Below, one piece after another: positions 1 through 8,777 of a DNA stretch of 43,181 nucleotides. Below the pieces are notes generated by a model that did no database searches, was not told where the DNA came from, and saw only the letters and a list, made by a program, of their open reading frames with translations. The DNA is from Deltaproteobacteria bacterium. GTDB taxonomy: Bacteria; Desulfobacterota; Desulfobaccia; Desulfobaccales; 0-14-0-80-60-11. The translations under genes were made by a program, and so were the position numbers. The stretch spans positions 1-43,181 of the forward strand of contig VGSQ01000014.1 of the NCBI GenBank assembly GCA_016874975.1. The letters are read 5' to 3'. How positions within the stretch are numbered: position 1 is the first letter of the stretch; the number at the start of each line of letters is the position of its first letter.

Positions 1-1161
1 GATATTGAGACGGCTCCACAGGGAAGCCCGCTCTTCTTTTTCCTCTGCGCCCAGGAGGCGCTCGGCCTGCGCCCGGAGGTCCCGGCAGAGCTGATGTTGG
101 GGATTGGTTTGGGCCAGAGGCCGGCCTTCGTTGATGCTGCGCTCCACCTCCTCCTGGGCCTCGGGGATGGTGGCCGAGACCTCCCGGCCCAGGAAGTCCT
201 GAATTTCCCTGATTCCCAGGTCGCCGCGCCTGCGCCAGAGGTTGATCCACAATTCCAGACCGGCGCCGGTCAGCCCCAGCAGGGGCAGGATTTCCATGAT
301 CTTCCGGGCGTTGGACAGGGCGCAGATGGATTGGGCGGCCACCAACAGCACCCGGTCCGCCAGGTCCAGGGCCCGGAGCGTCACCTCATCCAACTGGTGC
401 CCCGCGTCCACCACGACGGCGCTGAAATGGCCGTGTTTCTTCAGCATGTCCAAGACCCGGGCCATCTGCTCGGCGGCCACCATCTCCGCCTCCTCCATGC
501 GCCGGGGGGCCGGCAGGAGCTGCAGGTTGTCCCCGCAGCGGAAAAGGAGACCCTGGAGGTAGGAGTCGTCCAGACGGTCGAGATTTTCAATGATGTCGAT
601 GATGGTGTACTGGGGCTTGGCGTCCAAAAAATAGACCAGTTGTCCGTAGCGCAGGTCCAGGTCCACCGCCAGCACTGGACGTTTATGCAACTGGGCCAGA
701 CAATAGGCCAGGTTGATGGTGAGAAAGCTGGTCCCCACGCCCCCCTTGGCGCCCAAAAGGGCGATTTGTCTGGGGTGGGATCCTTCGCCCGGCTCCAGGG
801 GGGCCAGGGGCAGGCGCGCCAGCGCCTCCTGGAACTCCTCGGGCCGGATGGGGGAGGCGAAGCACTCCTTCACCCCCAGGCGCAGGGCCCGCCAAAGCTG
901 TTCGGTGGTGATCTCCTTGAAAAACAGGAAAATGGGCGGGTTCCGGAAGTCGGCCGCAGTCTTGCGGATCCACTGGTCCAGGCCGGGGGCGTCGGCCTGA
1001 TACTCCAGAAAAATGGCGTTGCTGCCGGAGTTGACATGCGCCGGCAGCTCGTCCAGAGAGCGCCTCTCCACAATACTGGCCTGAGGGGCTGAGGTGATGA
1101 CCCTCTGGAGATAGTCACCGTTCTCAGGCGTGTGGTAGAAGAGAGAGAATCTGATGGCCAT
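1..1161 (-). CDS. cpaE: CpaE/TadZ-type pilus assembly ATPase (partial, 3' end off window)
   Basis: The minus-strand frame is open from about 1197 to the left edge without a stop, so the C-terminus lies outside the window. It encodes an N-terminal receiver-like region followed by a MinD/ParA-type ATPase. The deviant Walker A reads GAKGGVGTS, followed by AVDLDLRYGQL and a later VVVDAGHQLDEV segment. CpaE/TadZ proteins localise the Tad machine to the pole or membrane, so this is a cytoplasmic Flp-pilus assembly factor. The start is uncertain: ATG at 1161 has AGGAG directly against it, while an in-frame GTG at 1197 has AGGA further upstream. It follows cpaB by about 40-75 bases in the same direction. 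No secretin gene sits between them. Confidence 0.85.
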   Translation of the reverse strand, partial: MAIRFSLFYHTPENGDYLQRVITSAPQASIVERRSLDELPAHVNSGSNAIFLEYQADAPGLDQWIRKTAADFRNPPIFLFFKEITTEQLWRALRLGVKECFASPIRPEEFQEALARLPLAPLEPGEGSHPRQIALLGAKGGVGTSFLTINLAYCLAQLHKRPVLAVDLDLRYGQLVYFLDAKPQYTIIDIIENLDRLDDSYLQGLLFRCGDNLQLLPAPRRMEEAEMVAAEQMARVLDMLKKHGHFSAVVVDAGHQLDEVTLRALDLADRVLLVAAQSICALSNARKIMEILPLLGLTGAGLELWINLWRRRGDLGIREIQDFLGREVSATIPEAQEEVERSINEGRPLAQTNPQHQLCRDLRAQAERLLGAEEKEERASLWSRLNI

Positions 1162-1236: not shown

Positions 1237-2073
1237 CTAAAAATTGAGGGCTTCGCGCTTCAATCCTTTGATCACCTCCACACTGCGTCGGGGAGGTGGA
1301 GGAGGCAAGGCCGCTCCCTGGACTTCCACCGCCCGGGGCAGAGCGGCCACGGCCACTGCCGCACCCAGCAGTTCGGAGGTGCGCACCCCCGAGGTGCTCA
1401 CCTGTTCCTGTTCCTTCTGGGGCCGCAGGATCAGGGAGATGCGCCCTTCCTTGTCCGCCAGGGCCAGGCGCTCCCCCTCCTCGGGGGAGACCTCCAGGGT
1501 CACCGTGGGCACCACCTGGGGCTTATCGCCGCTGCTGCGGTCGATGCGCTGGCCCACCCCCAGGACCCGCAGATTCTGGAGAATGAGCTTGCTGATGGGG
1601 TCCTTGTTGAAATCGCCCTTATCCACGGTGACCAGCACATCCACCCGGTTCTCCGGGGCGAGGAAGCCGGCCACCCCCGAGGCTTCGTCCACCTTGACGG
1701 TCATGGCCCGCTTCTCCGGGGCCAACAGGGCCGTCAACCCCGGCGGCGCCCCCTGGGGGGCCAGCTTGGCCTCCAGAATGGGCTCCCCGGCCATCATGGG
1801 CAGGACCACCACCCGGCCCGTCAACTCCTCCAGGCCGGCGAAACTGCCCTGGGGCCGGTTCTCCAGGGGCCAGCGGCGCACCACCAGTTGGTCCGCGGTG
1901 AGGGAGGTCGCCGCCCGGATCTCTTTGGCCGCCACCACCACCGAACCCATTTTGACGTGCTCCTGGGCTTGCTGCACGGGTTGATTCTTGAGCCACCCCA
2001 GGGCAATGAAGGTGGCGGTGGCCCCGAACACCAGGGCCATCATAAGCCATAACCAGGGGGGTAAGCGCCGCAT
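1237..2073 (-). CDS. cpaB: Flp pilus assembly protein CpaB
   Basis: The 278-residue protein has one N-terminal membrane segment (about residues 5-26) followed by a SAF domain (about 42-110: VVVAAKEIRAATSLTADQLVV) and a second beta-rich region with VDVLVTVD, as expected for RcpC/CpaB. These periplasmic, inner-membrane-anchored proteins are thought to work with the Tad secretin. The start ATG lies 6 bases after the tadE-like stop. GGAG of the preceding coding end sits 9 bases upstream and can act as ribosome binding site. It is clearly in one operon with flp, tadE and cpaE. A short Pro-rich, Ser/Arg tail follows the conserved part. Confidence 0.9.
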   Translation of the reverse strand: MRRLPPWLWLMMALVFGATATFIALGWLKNQPVQQAQEHVKMGSVVVAAKEIRAATSLTADQLVVRRWPLENRPQGSFAGLEELTGRVVVLPMMAGEPILEAKLAPQGAPPGLTALLAPEKRAMTVKVDEASGVAGFLAPENRVDVLVTVDKGDFNKDPISKLILQNLRVLGVGQRIDRSSGDKPQVVPTVTLEVSPEEGERLALADKEGRISLILRPQKEQEQVSTSGVRTSELLGAAVAVAALPRAVEVQGAALPPPPPRRSVEVIKGLKREALNF

Positions 2074-2079
2074 CCTCTG

Positions 2080-2493
2080 TCACTCCATGCGCATGACCGT
2101 CTCCGCGGTCAGGTTGACGGTGCCCACCAGCCCTTGCACGAAGGGGGGCAGCACCTGGAAACTGTAAGGATAACTGACGATGACGGTCAAGGGACTGCCG
2201 GTGTCGCCGCCCGCCCCGCTGACGGTGATGCCGGCGGTCTCGGTAAAGCCCGATTTCGTCAGATATTCATTGACCTTGGCCTGGATTTCGGCCGCCGTCT
2301 TGCGGGGCGTGGTGTACACCACCCCGAAGCGCGCCCCTTCCCGACCGGCGTTGGTAAGCAGTCCCTTGGCGTAGAAGGCCAGGCCGAACTCCACGATGGC
2401 GAAGAGAAAGGCCACCAGCAGGGGGACCACAACGGCGAATTCCGCAATTGCTCCGCCCCGTTGGTGGGCCGGGATGTCCCGCTTCCCTTTCAT
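2080..2493 (-). CDS. TadE-like pseudopilin of the Tad pilus
   Basis: The 137-residue protein begins RGGAIAEFAVVVPLLVAFLFAIVEFG, the TadE/TadF N-terminus with the G-x4-E-F prepilin-type processing motif and one hydrophobic helix (about residues 16-40). Beta-rich C-terminal sequence follows. TadE/TadF are minor pseudopilins of Flp pili, processed by the TadV-type peptidase. The frame stays open upstream to 2907, but ATG at 2493 is chosen because GGGAG lies 9 bases upstream and the conserved domain starts there. The stop is 6 bases from cpaB. Only one TadE-like gene is visible; TadF and the peptidase may lie to the left of the window. Confidence 0.88.
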   Translation of the reverse strand: MKGKRDIPAHQRGGAIAEFAVVVPLLVAFLFAIVEFGLAFYAKGLLTNAGREGARFGVVYTTPRKTAAEIQAKVNEYLTKSGFTETAGITVSGAGGDTGSPLTVIVSYPYSFQVLPPFVQGLVGTVNLTAETVMRME

Positions 2494-2657: not shown

Positions 2658-2828
2658 TTAGCTGCCGGACAACTGGCTCTGGACGTTGGTGAACTTGGTG
2701 TTCAGCGCGGTGCCGATGCCGTAGATGGCGGCCATCACCGCCACCGCGATGCCGGCCACCAGCAGGCCGTATTCCACCGCGCTGGCGCCTTCCTCGTTCT
2801 GAAGAAAGGACTTCATTTTGGTGATCAT
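2658..2828 (-). CDS. flp: Flp-family type IVb pilin
   Basis: The 56-residue prepilin reads MITKMKSFLQNEEG followed by ASAVEYGLLVAGIAV, i.e. a short basic leader, Gly at -1, the G-x4-E-Y signature and a single long hydrophobic helix. This is the major subunit of Tad/Flp adhesion pili. ATG at 2828 is preferred because AAGGAGG lies 5 bases upstream. An in-frame start at 2861 would add residues unlike a prepilin leader and has no ribosome site. It is the first gene of the tad operon, 190 bases downstream of a c-di-GMP-I riboswitch. Confidence 0.93.
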   Translation of the reverse strand: MITKMKSFLQNEEGASAVEYGLLVAGIAVAVMAAIYGIGTALNTKFTNVQSQLSGS

Positions 2829-2962
2829 GGTTTCCTCCTTGAGTAGTCGGGGAAGTTTCACTGCTCTGCCAGAAACATGATTGCTTTCCGTACCCGCGCG
2901 GCTTCACCTCCTTGGGGGCGGCAACCGTTTCCGGTCTCCCCGGGGTGGCCCACCGAGTTCAC

Positions 2963-2996
2963 CAAAAGAAAGCCCTTGACTGGTTGGCTGCAAGGG
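2963..2996 (-). terminator. Terminator-like hairpin between riboswitch and flp (expression platform)
   Basis: On the minus strand CCCTTG and CAAGGG form a 6-bp stem with a 12-base loop, followed directly by CTTTCTTTT. It lies about 20 bases after the aptamer and 135 bases before the flp start. That is the right place for a transcription-termination expression platform. Which ligand state favours termination cannot be read from this alone. Confidence 0.6.
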
Positions 2997-3016
2997 ATGG
3001 TCCTTCCTCCGGCGTC

Positions 3017-3104
3017 CACTTCGGCAATCCCGCCGCCTTGGCCCGGACCCGGGCGTTAGGCCGGTGATTTTGCGTCCCACCCTTTCGGAGTGGTTTGCCT
3101 TTCT
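3017..3104 (-). promoter_or_regulatory. c-di-GMP-I (GEMM) riboswitch aptamer
   Basis: The minus strand shows the GEMM-I core in order. It has GGCAAACC, a P1b stem CCACTC/GGGTGG capped by a GAAA tetraloop, GGGACGCAAA, CCGGCCTAA, a second GC-rich arm, and a closing TTGCCGAAG that pairs with the opening GGCAA. The base before CAAAC is G, matching G20 of the Vibrio Vc2 aptamer that favours c-di-GMP; the 3',3'-cGAMP variants have A there. It sits in the 5' leader of the flp/tad operon, so c-di-GMP should control pilus expression. The direction, ON or OFF, is not determined. Confidence 0.92.
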
Positions 3105-3130
3105 CGGTGGACTCTTGTTATTTGCTCCCT

Positions 3131-3157
3131 TTATCGGCTTCTTTTCCCCAGCCTTTA
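3131..3157 (-). promoter_or_regulatory. Sigma-28 (FliA)-type promoter for the flp/tad operon
   Basis: The minus strand carries TAAAGGCT, an 11-base spacer, then GCCGATAA. The consensus is TAAAGTTT-N11-GCCGATAA, so the -10 is a perfect match and the -35 matches at six of eight positions. Transcription would begin about 15-20 bases before the riboswitch aptamer, which supports the assignment. Confidence 0.75.
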
Positions 3158-4828: not shown

Positions 4829-5022
4829 GGTGTGCGATACATGGCTGGCGTTACCAGGAAATGCGTGACCATCCAAACCCATTCCCGCAAAGGCGACGTA
4901 GGGTGCGCACCGCGCACCATTGCCTGGGCCTGGCGGCGGGCAGGGACGCCGGCCCCACCGCCCTTTTCATGTGTTATGGGTGGGCCAGCGGCCCATGCGC
5001 GACTGCTCTGAAAATGCCTCTC

Positions 5023-5070
5023 GTAGGGCGCGTCTTACGCGCCAAAGACGGTGCGTGAGACGCACCCTAT
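5023..5070 (+). repeat. GTAGGGCGCG...GCACCCTA palindromic repeat, copy in unit 1
   Basis: GTAGGGCGCGTCTTACGCGC is followed by GGTGCGTGAGACGCACCCTA, each half palindromic and the whole bounded by GTAGGG/CCCTA. Related short fragments occur at 4898-4920, 6510-6528, 18402-18420 and 41566-41590. Confidence 0.7.
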
Positions 5071-5109
5071 TTTATTGGTTTTGGGTGTTCCCCCGGTACA
5101 TGATTGGCT

Positions 5110-5161
5110 CGTTCCCAAGCTCCCGCTTGGGAACGCACTTGCCCCGAAGCTCCTGCTTCGG
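5110..5161 (+). repeat. GTTCCCAAGC palindromic element, copy 1
   Basis: CGTTCCCAAGC / GCTTGGGAACG form an 11-bp stem with a short loop. A second hairpin follows, CCGAAGC/GCTTCGG. At least six copies or partial copies occur in intergenic parts of the window. Confidence 0.8.
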
Positions 5162-5261
5162 ACTTGGCCTGGCGGCGGGCAGGGACGCCCGCCCCACCGG
5201 CCTTTTCATGTGTTATGGGTGGGCCCGCGGCCCATGCGCGACTGCTCTGAAAATGCCTCTC

Positions 5262-5309
5262 GTAGGGCGCGTCTTACGCGCCAAAGACGGTGCGTGAGAC
5301 GCACCCTAC
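5262..5309 (+). repeat. GTAGGGCGCG...GCACCCTAC palindromic repeat, copy in unit 2
   Basis: Second near-identical copy of the element at 5023-5070, carried by the second unit of the tandem duplication and ending in a complete CCCTAC. Confidence 0.7.
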
Positions 5310-5350
5310 ATTTTCATGGTTTTGGGTGTTCCCCCGGTACATGATTGGCT

Positions 5351-5403
5351 CGTTCCCAAGCTCCCGCTTGGGAACGCCATTGCCCCCGAAGCTCCTGCTT
5401 CGG
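5351..5403 (+). repeat. GTTCCCAAGC palindromic element, copy 2
   Basis: Same two-hairpin element as at 5110, with one extra base in the linker; it lies in the second tandem unit. Confidence 0.8.
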
Positions 5404-5696
5404 ACTTGGCCTGGCGGCAGGCCGGGAACCCGGTGCAGGCTTAACCCCGCGGCTGCCTTTCCCGGCGTTGCCGGAAATCCCCGGGTGGCTCAAGACCACG
5501 GAGCATCGAGCAGTGACCAGGAGCAGGATGTGGCGCAGTACCTGAAATACGGCCTTATGGGCAAGGCTCATCCCGGCGGAGGAGAGGGGATAAAGCCTGG
5601 GAAGAATGACCCCCCTCCACCCGCCGGCGGAGGAAGAGGGCCGGGGTGAGGGGGGCGGCCCGTCCCCGGGCCCGCCCCCACCCCTGTAACCGGGGG

Positions 5697-6415: not shown

Positions 6416-6807
6416 CGTCCTGGCAGAGCGCTGCGGTAAGGATTTTCGGGCAGGCGAGCCCGTGGCTGAGCACTCATGAAAAATATGCAAGAATTCGCAT
6501 GGTTATGATGCGCAGTGCGCACCCTACACAAAATATCTCCAGGCCGGAGGCAGTGCAGGCCGTTTGCCTGGTTCCCAACCTCCCGCTTGGGAACCGCCTT
6601 GCCCGCCAAGCTCTGCGTGGCCGGAGGCTCAACTTTTTGGCGGAGGCGAGCCGGATAAACGGGAATTTCCCGCCCCAGGTGTGCTATCATGCTTCATTCC
6701 ACGGCAAGGCCGGGAGGCTCGCCGCCTCGTTCCGAAGAACAGGGAGCCTGGTCGCGGCGCCGCGGCGCTTCACCCTGGGAAACCATCGGCCATCAGGAGG
6801 CTTTGGT
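6416..6807. other. Intergenic region with repeat fragments
   Basis: About 390 bases between divergent genes. It contains a GCGCACCCTAC repeat end (6510-6528) and a degenerate GTTCCCAAGC element (6570-6615). The frame of the downstream gene is open upstream through here, but no ribosome site or domain sequence supports coding. AGGAGG at 6795-6800 belongs to the next gene. Confidence 0.6.
6570..6615 (+). repeat. GTTCCCAAGC palindromic element, degenerate copy 3
   Basis: GGTTCCCAACC / GCTTGGGAACC and the following GCCCGCCAAGCTCTGCG resemble the first and second arms of the element with several substitutions. Confidence 0.6.
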
Positions 6808-8318: not shown

Positions 8319-8708
8319 ATGAGTCGCGGCAAAACCAGCCTGGCCCTGATGTTCGTGTTTATCCCCCTGTTCTTCCTGGCCCTGGCTGTGGCGGAAAATT
8401 CCCAGGCTCAGGCTCAGGGGATCTGGCCCTGGACCTCTTACCGCCTGGTGGAGGAGAGCGACCTGGGACCCCTTTCCCTCAGGGACCTGGAAATCATGCG
8501 CAACGAAATCTATGCCCGCAAGGGCTGGATTTTCGCCCGGGCCGACCTGAACGGCTACTTCAATAGCCAACCCTGGTACCGGCCCGGCGGCCCCCCCTGG
8601 GACCGGGAGCGGGTCAACCGCATGGCGGAGGCCTCCCTTTCCCCCCTGGAGCGCCAGAATATCTCCCGCATCTCTTCTTATGAGCGATTCCGGCGCGGGG
8701 GCAGGTGA
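8319..8708 (+). CDS. Small exported YARHG-domain protein
   Basis: The 129-residue protein has a signal peptide (about 1-33, ALAVAENSQAQA) and then one YARHG domain: LRDLEIMRNEIYARKGWIF (about 57-75) followed by YFNSQPWY. YARHG domains are extracellular modules of unknown function, often attached to other secreted domains; here the domain stands alone. ATG at 8319 is chosen over one 15 bases upstream because AGGAGG lies 6 bases before it. A good sigma-70 promoter precedes it. The C-terminus is Arg/Gly-rich. It stands alone between repeat-rich spacers. Confidence 0.85.
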   Translation: MSRGKTSLALMFVFIPLFFLALAVAENSQAQAQGIWPWTSYRLVEESDLGPLSLRDLEIMRNEIYARKGWIFARADLNGYFNSQPWYRPGGPPWDRERVNRMAEASLSPLERQNISRISSYERFRRGGR

Positions 8709-8725
8709 GGGGGGGTGCAAAACCT

Positions 8726-8777
8726 CGTTCCCAAGCTCCCGCTTGGGAACGCACTTGCCCCGAAGCTCCTGCTTCGG
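8726..8777 (+). repeat. GTTCCCAAGC palindromic element, copy 4
   Basis: Identical two-hairpin layout to the copy at 5110-5161, located 17 bases after the YARHG gene. It could also act as a transcript end. Confidence 0.8.

Follow-up and report, generated by a model that had tools for sequence, protein, structure and literature searches.

A FliA-Type Promoter and a c-di-GMP-I Aptamer in the Leader of a Tad Pilus Operon from Desulfobaccales: A Putative Two-Input Control

Introduction

Which signals control the attachment pilus encoded at this locus? The window, the whole stretch of 43,181 nt analyzed here, makes up a complete contig, and the genome to which it belongs measures 3.34 Mb. The initial annotation of its DNA proposed that a c-di-GMP-I riboswitch directly controls the transcription of flp through a terminator-like hairpin. 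The computed basis for the answer given below consists of the aptamer, the operon, the promoter motif and its conservation, a covarying competing helix, and the retention of FliA and FlgM without a flagellum. The whole model, a doubly controlled Tad-pilus operon leader with a FliA promoter and a c-di-GMP-I aptamer with helix exchange, is considered probable. In this model, the recognition of the promoter by FliA, the ligand control of the helix exchange, the regulatory direction and the output step are putative.

Results and Discussion

The Tad Operon and Its Leader

The Flp pilin, TadE and CpaB/RcpC are encoded in the order expected for a Flp/Tad pilus operon, and their Pfam matches exceed the cut-off. 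The genes are as follows.

2658..2828, minus strand: flp, major pilin (56 aa; Pfam Flp_Fap 2e-15), with the Shine-Dalgarno sequence AAGGAGG at 2840-2834
2080..2493, minus strand: tadE, minor pilin (Pfam TadE 1.1e-14)
1237..2073, minus strand: cpaB/rcpC (Pfam CpaB/RcpC 8.6e-32)
1..1161, minus strand: tadZ/cpaE-like ParA ATPase, assigned by eye from the AKGGVGTS motif and the place in the operon; cut by the contig end

Because the contig stops at window position 1, the operon as covered here comprises these four genes. The relatives of CpaB are encoded by Desulfobacca, by Desulfobaccales and by further MAGs labeled "Deltaproteobacteria", which places the host within Desulfobacterota and close to Desulfobacca. 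An aptamer followed by flp was observed in 19 leaders of Desulfobaccales, which are 18 loci including the window plus G014:C217, and the assignment of the aptamer to a flp/tad leader is supported. In the 18 loci, the ATG of flp is 147-200 nt downstream of the aptamer. These leaders come from related species, so the counts based on them are not independent. The flp leader of G009 (L158/L032), the sister of the aptamer-bearing G001, has a FliA-type site and no aptamer above the cut-off; loss of the aptamer is possible there.

Identity and Ligand of the Aptamer

The cmscan analysis of the whole window revealed RF01051 (c-di-GMP-I, GEMM-I) as the sole gathering-level match, at 3109-3020 on the minus strand, with 77.4 bits (E 1.2e-13) against the curated cut-off of 35 bits. 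The match is full length (1-87/87) with no broken pairs. Comparison of the flp leader with Rfam at a relaxed threshold gave, apart from RF01051, nothing but chance-level matches. The span originally given, 3017-3104, agrees closely with the location of the aptamer; its ends are off by 3-5 nt.

3020..3109, minus strand: c-di-GMP-I (GEMM-I) aptamer (RF01051, 77.4 bits), its specificity base located by comparison with the aptamers of Desulfobacca acetoxidans

The specificity base is G at 3099, the first G of GGCAAACC, and G is expected for c-di-GMP. This base reportedly decides between c-di-GMP and c-AMP-GMP (Nelson 2015; Kellenberger 2015). A c-AMP-GMP (cGAMP, GEMM-Ib) aptamer needs A at this position and was ruled out. 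The G named in the initial annotation as favoring c-di-GMP over 3',3'-cGAMP is present. Among the aptamers of G024 (one contig of 3,282,536 bp), the aligned position is A in the variant G024:C1:907011 and G in the others. To judge from its riboswitch cluster, G024 is probably D. acetoxidans, in which the c-AMP-GMP variant has a single changed pocket base and the aptamers were probed in line (PMC9481103). By sequence, the presence of the aptamer in the window is certain, and its predicted ligand is c-di-GMP. The genome of the window encodes four GGDEF proteins.

RF01051 matches are found in 25 of 29 Desulfobaccales genomes. One core pair, G-C or C-G, splits the aptamers of the order into class A and class B, respectively. 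Class A aptamers precede flp (the 18 loci and G014:C217), tadE/tadG-like genes and a few others. The genes downstream of class B aptamers encode, by reading, mostly exported or surface proteins. The order thus holds two sets of c-di-GMP-I riboswitches, unlike in promoter type and target genes.

Some other aptamers of the order deserve mention. The second class A aptamer in the genome of the window (L001, G000:C28:1362-1447) is located 5' of tadE and a tadG-like gene; upstream of it is a weaker FliA-like site, TCAAG...GCCGAAA, and there is no anti-P1 strand (described below). At L064 (G021:C26), a tandem pair of class A aptamers, ~150 nt apart, is seen 5' of a tadE-like gene. The aptamer at L039 4742-4827, before flp, has its best score from the variant family c-di-GMP-I-GGC (RF03167); its specificity base appears canonical despite this score.

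A FliA-Type Promoter Upstream of the Aptamer

Upstream of the aptamer, TAAA-N15-GCCGATAA at 3157-3131 agrees with the sigma-28/FliA promoter pattern.

3154..3157, minus strand: -35 element TAAA, within TTTTTAAAG, conserved in aptamer-flp leaders
3131..3138, minus strand: -10 element GCCGATAA, 15 nt after TAAA, of the sigma-28/FliA-type pattern

Transcription is predicted to start around 3125-3120. In the aligned leaders, G/ACCGATA is present before flp in all those with an aptamer, ~20-30 nt 5' of the aptamer, and TTAAAG or TTTAAG is found farther upstream. The position of the FliA-type site is fixed at 19-31 nt before class A aptamers. The strict site is seen in 15 of the 18 flp leaders (the remaining three have TTAAT...GCCGATA), in 8/20 other class A leaders and in none of the 49 class B leaders, compared with 0.04-0.05 per group in the shuffled-leader control. 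Class B leaders have sigma-70-like boxes instead in 29 of the 49 cases.

There are four sites of TAAA-N15-GCCGATA in the genome of the window. Three are 5' of flagellin, FlgM and the flp leader, and the fourth, inside a reading frame, is attributed to chance. A looser FliA pattern showed no enrichment over the backward control genome-wide in the window genome. The argument for FliA therefore rests on the placement of the sites, not on their number. A cognate FliA is encoded. It is very likely, from its sequence and placement, that the flp leader promoter is of the FliA type, and FliA itself would be the factor that reads it. The view that c-di-GMP offers a "simple route" to attachment is not supported; the leader also carries this promoter, and c-di-GMP would therefore share control with a second likely input.

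The promoter and aptamer pattern was also searched phylum-wide. The pattern required GCGCAAA and passed over ACGCAAA, a common form that the window itself has, so the result, at least one apparent case beyond the order (G289), is a lower bound. At that locus (L267), TAAAG...GCCGATA stands before a c-di-GMP-I-like aptamer, which is followed by an exported protein with SBBP-like repeats.

Competing Helices in the Leader

The 5' strand of the P1 helix has two possible partners in the flp leader.

3103..3112, minus strand: 5' strand GUCCACCGAG, in which GUCCAC (3112-3107) can pair with 3019-3014 as P1, or the whole strand can pair with 2957-2948 (anti-P1)
3014..3019, minus strand: P1 3' strand GUGGAC, directly after the aptamer
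2948..2957, minus strand: anti-P1 strand CUCGGUGGGC, complementary to 3112-3103 and in competition with P1

Across flp leaders, the competitor strand begins 27-63 nt beyond the P1 3' strand, and the anti-P1 duplex reaches -18 to -26 kcal/mol versus -7 to -15 kcal/mol for P1. The mean z of anti-P1 is -2.53 in flp leaders, -0.45 in other class A leaders and +0.08 in class B leaders. Anti-P1 was sought in tadE-type and class B leaders and was not found there, indicating that it is specific to flp leaders. The covariation score is 0.286 against 0.165 for shuffled sequences (0/500), and every slid register scored lower. The double changes in the 7-bp core are C-G to U-A in G007 and G010, and G-C versus A-U at the end; the set contains six distinct forms only, with most pairs invariant. 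These sequence data make the competing helix likely.

Based on these elements, the following course is proposed. Transcription would start at the FliA (sigma-28) promoter, which would couple the Tad pilus with the flagellar sigma factor and with FlgM, the antagonist of this factor. As the RNA emerges, it would fold the c-di-GMP-I aptamer, and P1 (3112-3107/3019-3014) would then compete with the longer helix (3112-3103/2957-2948). When c-di-GMP is bound, P1 would be held and the long helix blocked; when there is no ligand, the downstream strand would invade. The output would be through translation, RNA stability or elongation, not through a ligand-controlled intrinsic terminator.

In general, c-di-GMP favors attachment. 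ON switches are predicted in Desulfobacca by the authors of PMC9481103. For these two reasons, we lean toward the view that the ligand turns flp ON, via translation, RNA stability or elongation. The opposite direction is also reasonable: pili made before contact may be shut off as c-di-GMP rises, with FliA marking motile cells. The predicted accessibility of the flp start site hardly differs between the P1 and anti-P1 states. Start-site occlusion as the ligand-dependent output was therefore rejected, and the output step is not explained by accessibility.

Alternative Explanations

Two further elements of the leader bear on the alternatives.

2963..2996, minus strand: weak hairpin CCCUUG/CAAGGG with a loop of 12 and the tail CUUUCUUUU, terminator- or pause-like, not in all leaders
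2904..2913, minus strand: AAGGAGGUGA, 75 nt 5' of flp, a complete Shine-Dalgarno complement that lacks a normally spaced start codon

Direct c-di-GMP control of an intrinsic terminator at 2963-2996, the role originally proposed for the hairpin, is unlikely. The terminator-like hairpin does exist as a sequence: in the DNA, the stem CCCTTG/CAAGGG (~-7 kcal/mol) is followed by CTTTCTTTT, and a terminator-like hairpin with a U-rich stretch is observed at this place in 7 of the 18 leaders. However, the hairpin is weak, and the sequence around it does not fold better than shuffled versions (z -0.63). G003, G011 and G015 lack it, and other leaders have it in weak form or without a U tract. A strict terminator scan of the window did not list it, and a stable GC hairpin with a U tract conserved across leaders, as an intrinsic terminator platform would have, was not found. 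In all seven cases, the hairpin lies 5' of the anti-P1 strand, which therefore cannot control termination at 2963-2996; no antiterminator overlapping P1 was found, and no terminator-like hairpin is located between the anti-P1 strand and flp in the 18 leaders. The weakness of the hairpin, its absence from three leaders and its position 5' of the competitor strand leave ligand-controlled termination unsupported. As a speculation, it could be a pause site that gives the ligand time to bind. Translational control appears equally doubtful. Here, CAAGGGCUUUCUUUUGGUGAA (2978-2958), which is the 3' arm of the hairpin plus its U-rich tail, would pair with 2825-2805 in the start region of flp, and the ligand would modulate this pairing. 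The pairing amounts to 18 pairs and -23.8 kcal/mol in the window. About ten leaders show like complementarity, and G001 and the genus g7 differ there by an A-U versus G-C exchange. Against this, the window stands at 0.086 relative to synonymous codon shuffles, the mean z over the 18 leaders is -0.9, the strand forms part of the local hairpin as well, and ligand dependence is not evident. A leader pairing to codons 2-8 of flp was rejected as not significant across all leaders.

The other two alternatives concern the promoter and the role of the RNA. That another sigma factor reads the promoter-like site, or that this site is not the promoter, the link to FliA being coincidental, fits the lack of genome-wide enrichment of the pattern alone, but it is slightly less plausible still than either of the preceding ones. 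The identical site stands before flagellin and FlgM in the genome of the window and before FlgM in relatives, its fixed spacing to class A aptamers is not seen before class B aptamers, and it matches the FliA consensus of Bdellovibrio. It is very improbable that the leader RNA acts chiefly as a sponge for c-di-GMP, in the manner of merRNA of Bdellovibrio, with no cis regulation of flp. merRNA is abundant and contains a c-di-GMP riboswitch, its host likewise has a Tad operon driven by FliA, and transcripts may end prematurely at the hairpin. However, flp always follows the aptamer at a nearly constant spacing, and the anti-P1 strand, specific to flp leaders, comes after the hairpin, whereas merRNA has no conserved downstream gene. 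The leader with a FliA promoter, an aptamer and helix exchange is the preferred reading.

AAGGAGGUGA is located 70-105 nt upstream of flp across leaders. Its GGAGGTG core is present in 16/18 aptamer leaders, about half of the flp leaders without an aptamer, and 4/47 class B leaders. A leader reading frame served by AAGGAGGUGA was rejected, as the aligned leaders have, by reading, no start codon at the usual spacing. Ribosome-bound 5' stabilizer elements occur in Bacillus, and it is possible that AAGGAGGUGA acts as such an element. AGGAGGTGG is also present in the flagellin leader (L136).

FliA and FlgM without a Flagellum

FliA is found over the curated cut-off in 27 of 31 relatives, flagellated or not. 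In 12 genomes with such a match, FlhA and flagellin are both absent; both are also absent in G026, where the FliA match is partial. Most genomes are incomplete, and the absence of a flagellum can be stated most safely for G024, a single contig. The label for the flagellum changes three times on the FliA tree; the well-supported branches alone force fewer changes. In five of six flagella-less loci, fliA is, by reading, directly 3' of a FlhG/MinD-like gene. At L178-L185 in flagella-less relatives, fliA adjoins this gene with no flagellar genes around, and FlgM is kept elsewhere.

FlgM is the antagonist of FliA, and classically it is relieved by flagellar export. FlgM is retained in relatives without a flagellum. 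Among the seven flagella-less genomes examined, FliA-like sites are present upstream of FlgM in five (G007, G008, G013, G022 and G024) and were not found in G002 and G010. Across 13 flagella-less genomes, there are 54 strict FliA sites versus 59 in the backward control. Seven strict sites in such genomes precede flp (G002, G004, G010, G014 and G022) or tadG-like genes (G008 and G013).

It is somewhat likely that the FliA/FlgM switch of Desulfobaccales has turned into a regulator of pili and survived the loss of the flagellum. The switch would have been kept after about three losses and would drive Tad genes, many of them with a c-di-GMP-I riboswitch, making a two-input gate of sigma factor and second messenger on one operon. 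This offers a concrete reason why flagella-less bacteria keep FliA and FlgM.

Comparison with Known Systems

FliA control of flp1 and the Tad operon was demonstrated in Bdellovibrio (PMC5430801), and the mapped FliA consensus there is TTAAG-N16-CCGATA (PMC3627812). A FliA-type promoter, like the putative one of the flp leader in the window, drives flp1 and the Tad operon in Bdellovibrio (PMC5430801, PMC3627812). The Bdellovibrio flp paper (PMC5430801) does not mention a riboswitch, whereas the leader in the window holds a c-di-GMP-I aptamer. FliA of Desulfobaccales also persists without a flagellum, unlike in the Bdellovibrio comparison.

The flp leader resembles RF01051 riboswitches in general in its aptamer core, score and specificity base G, but differs from them in the FliA-type promoter, the flp-specific anti-P1 strand and the Tad pilus operon as the target. 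D. acetoxidans, from the same order, has tandem c-di-GMP-I/AdoCbl and c-AMP-GMP riboswitches, and its c-di-GMP-I aptamers bind c-di-GMP by in-line probing (PMC9481103). Those aptamers are of class B (C-G, not G-C, in the core), have other target genes and have no FliA-type promoter. In Synechocystis, a group 3 sigma factor, SigF, likewise drives pilin genes (pilA1, type IV there), but SigF is nearer to SigB of B. subtilis, recognizes another promoter and is not accompanied by a riboswitch (PMC2758279). The Bc1 c-di-GMP-I riboswitch of Bacillus thuringiensis shares the long platform after the aptamer; Bc1 has two intrinsic terminators (PMC11218506), in contrast to the leaders studied here, which yielded no conserved terminator.

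Searches of the open-access literature turned up neither a c-di-GMP riboswitch on a Tad operon nor the present combination with a FliA promoter. Each part has a precedent, the FliA-driven Tad operon in Bdellovibrio and the well-known c-di-GMP-I riboswitches, and it is the combination that would be new. Two inputs usually handled separately, the flagellar sigma factor and c-di-GMP, would meet on an attachment-pilus gene. Attachment in relatives of Desulfobacca is apparently wired to two signals at once.

Elsewhere in the window, interspersed intergenic repeats with 146-nt and 77-nt units and GTTCCCAAGCTCCCGCTTGGGAAC palindromes are located at 4903-5427, 6564-6621 and 8685-8777.
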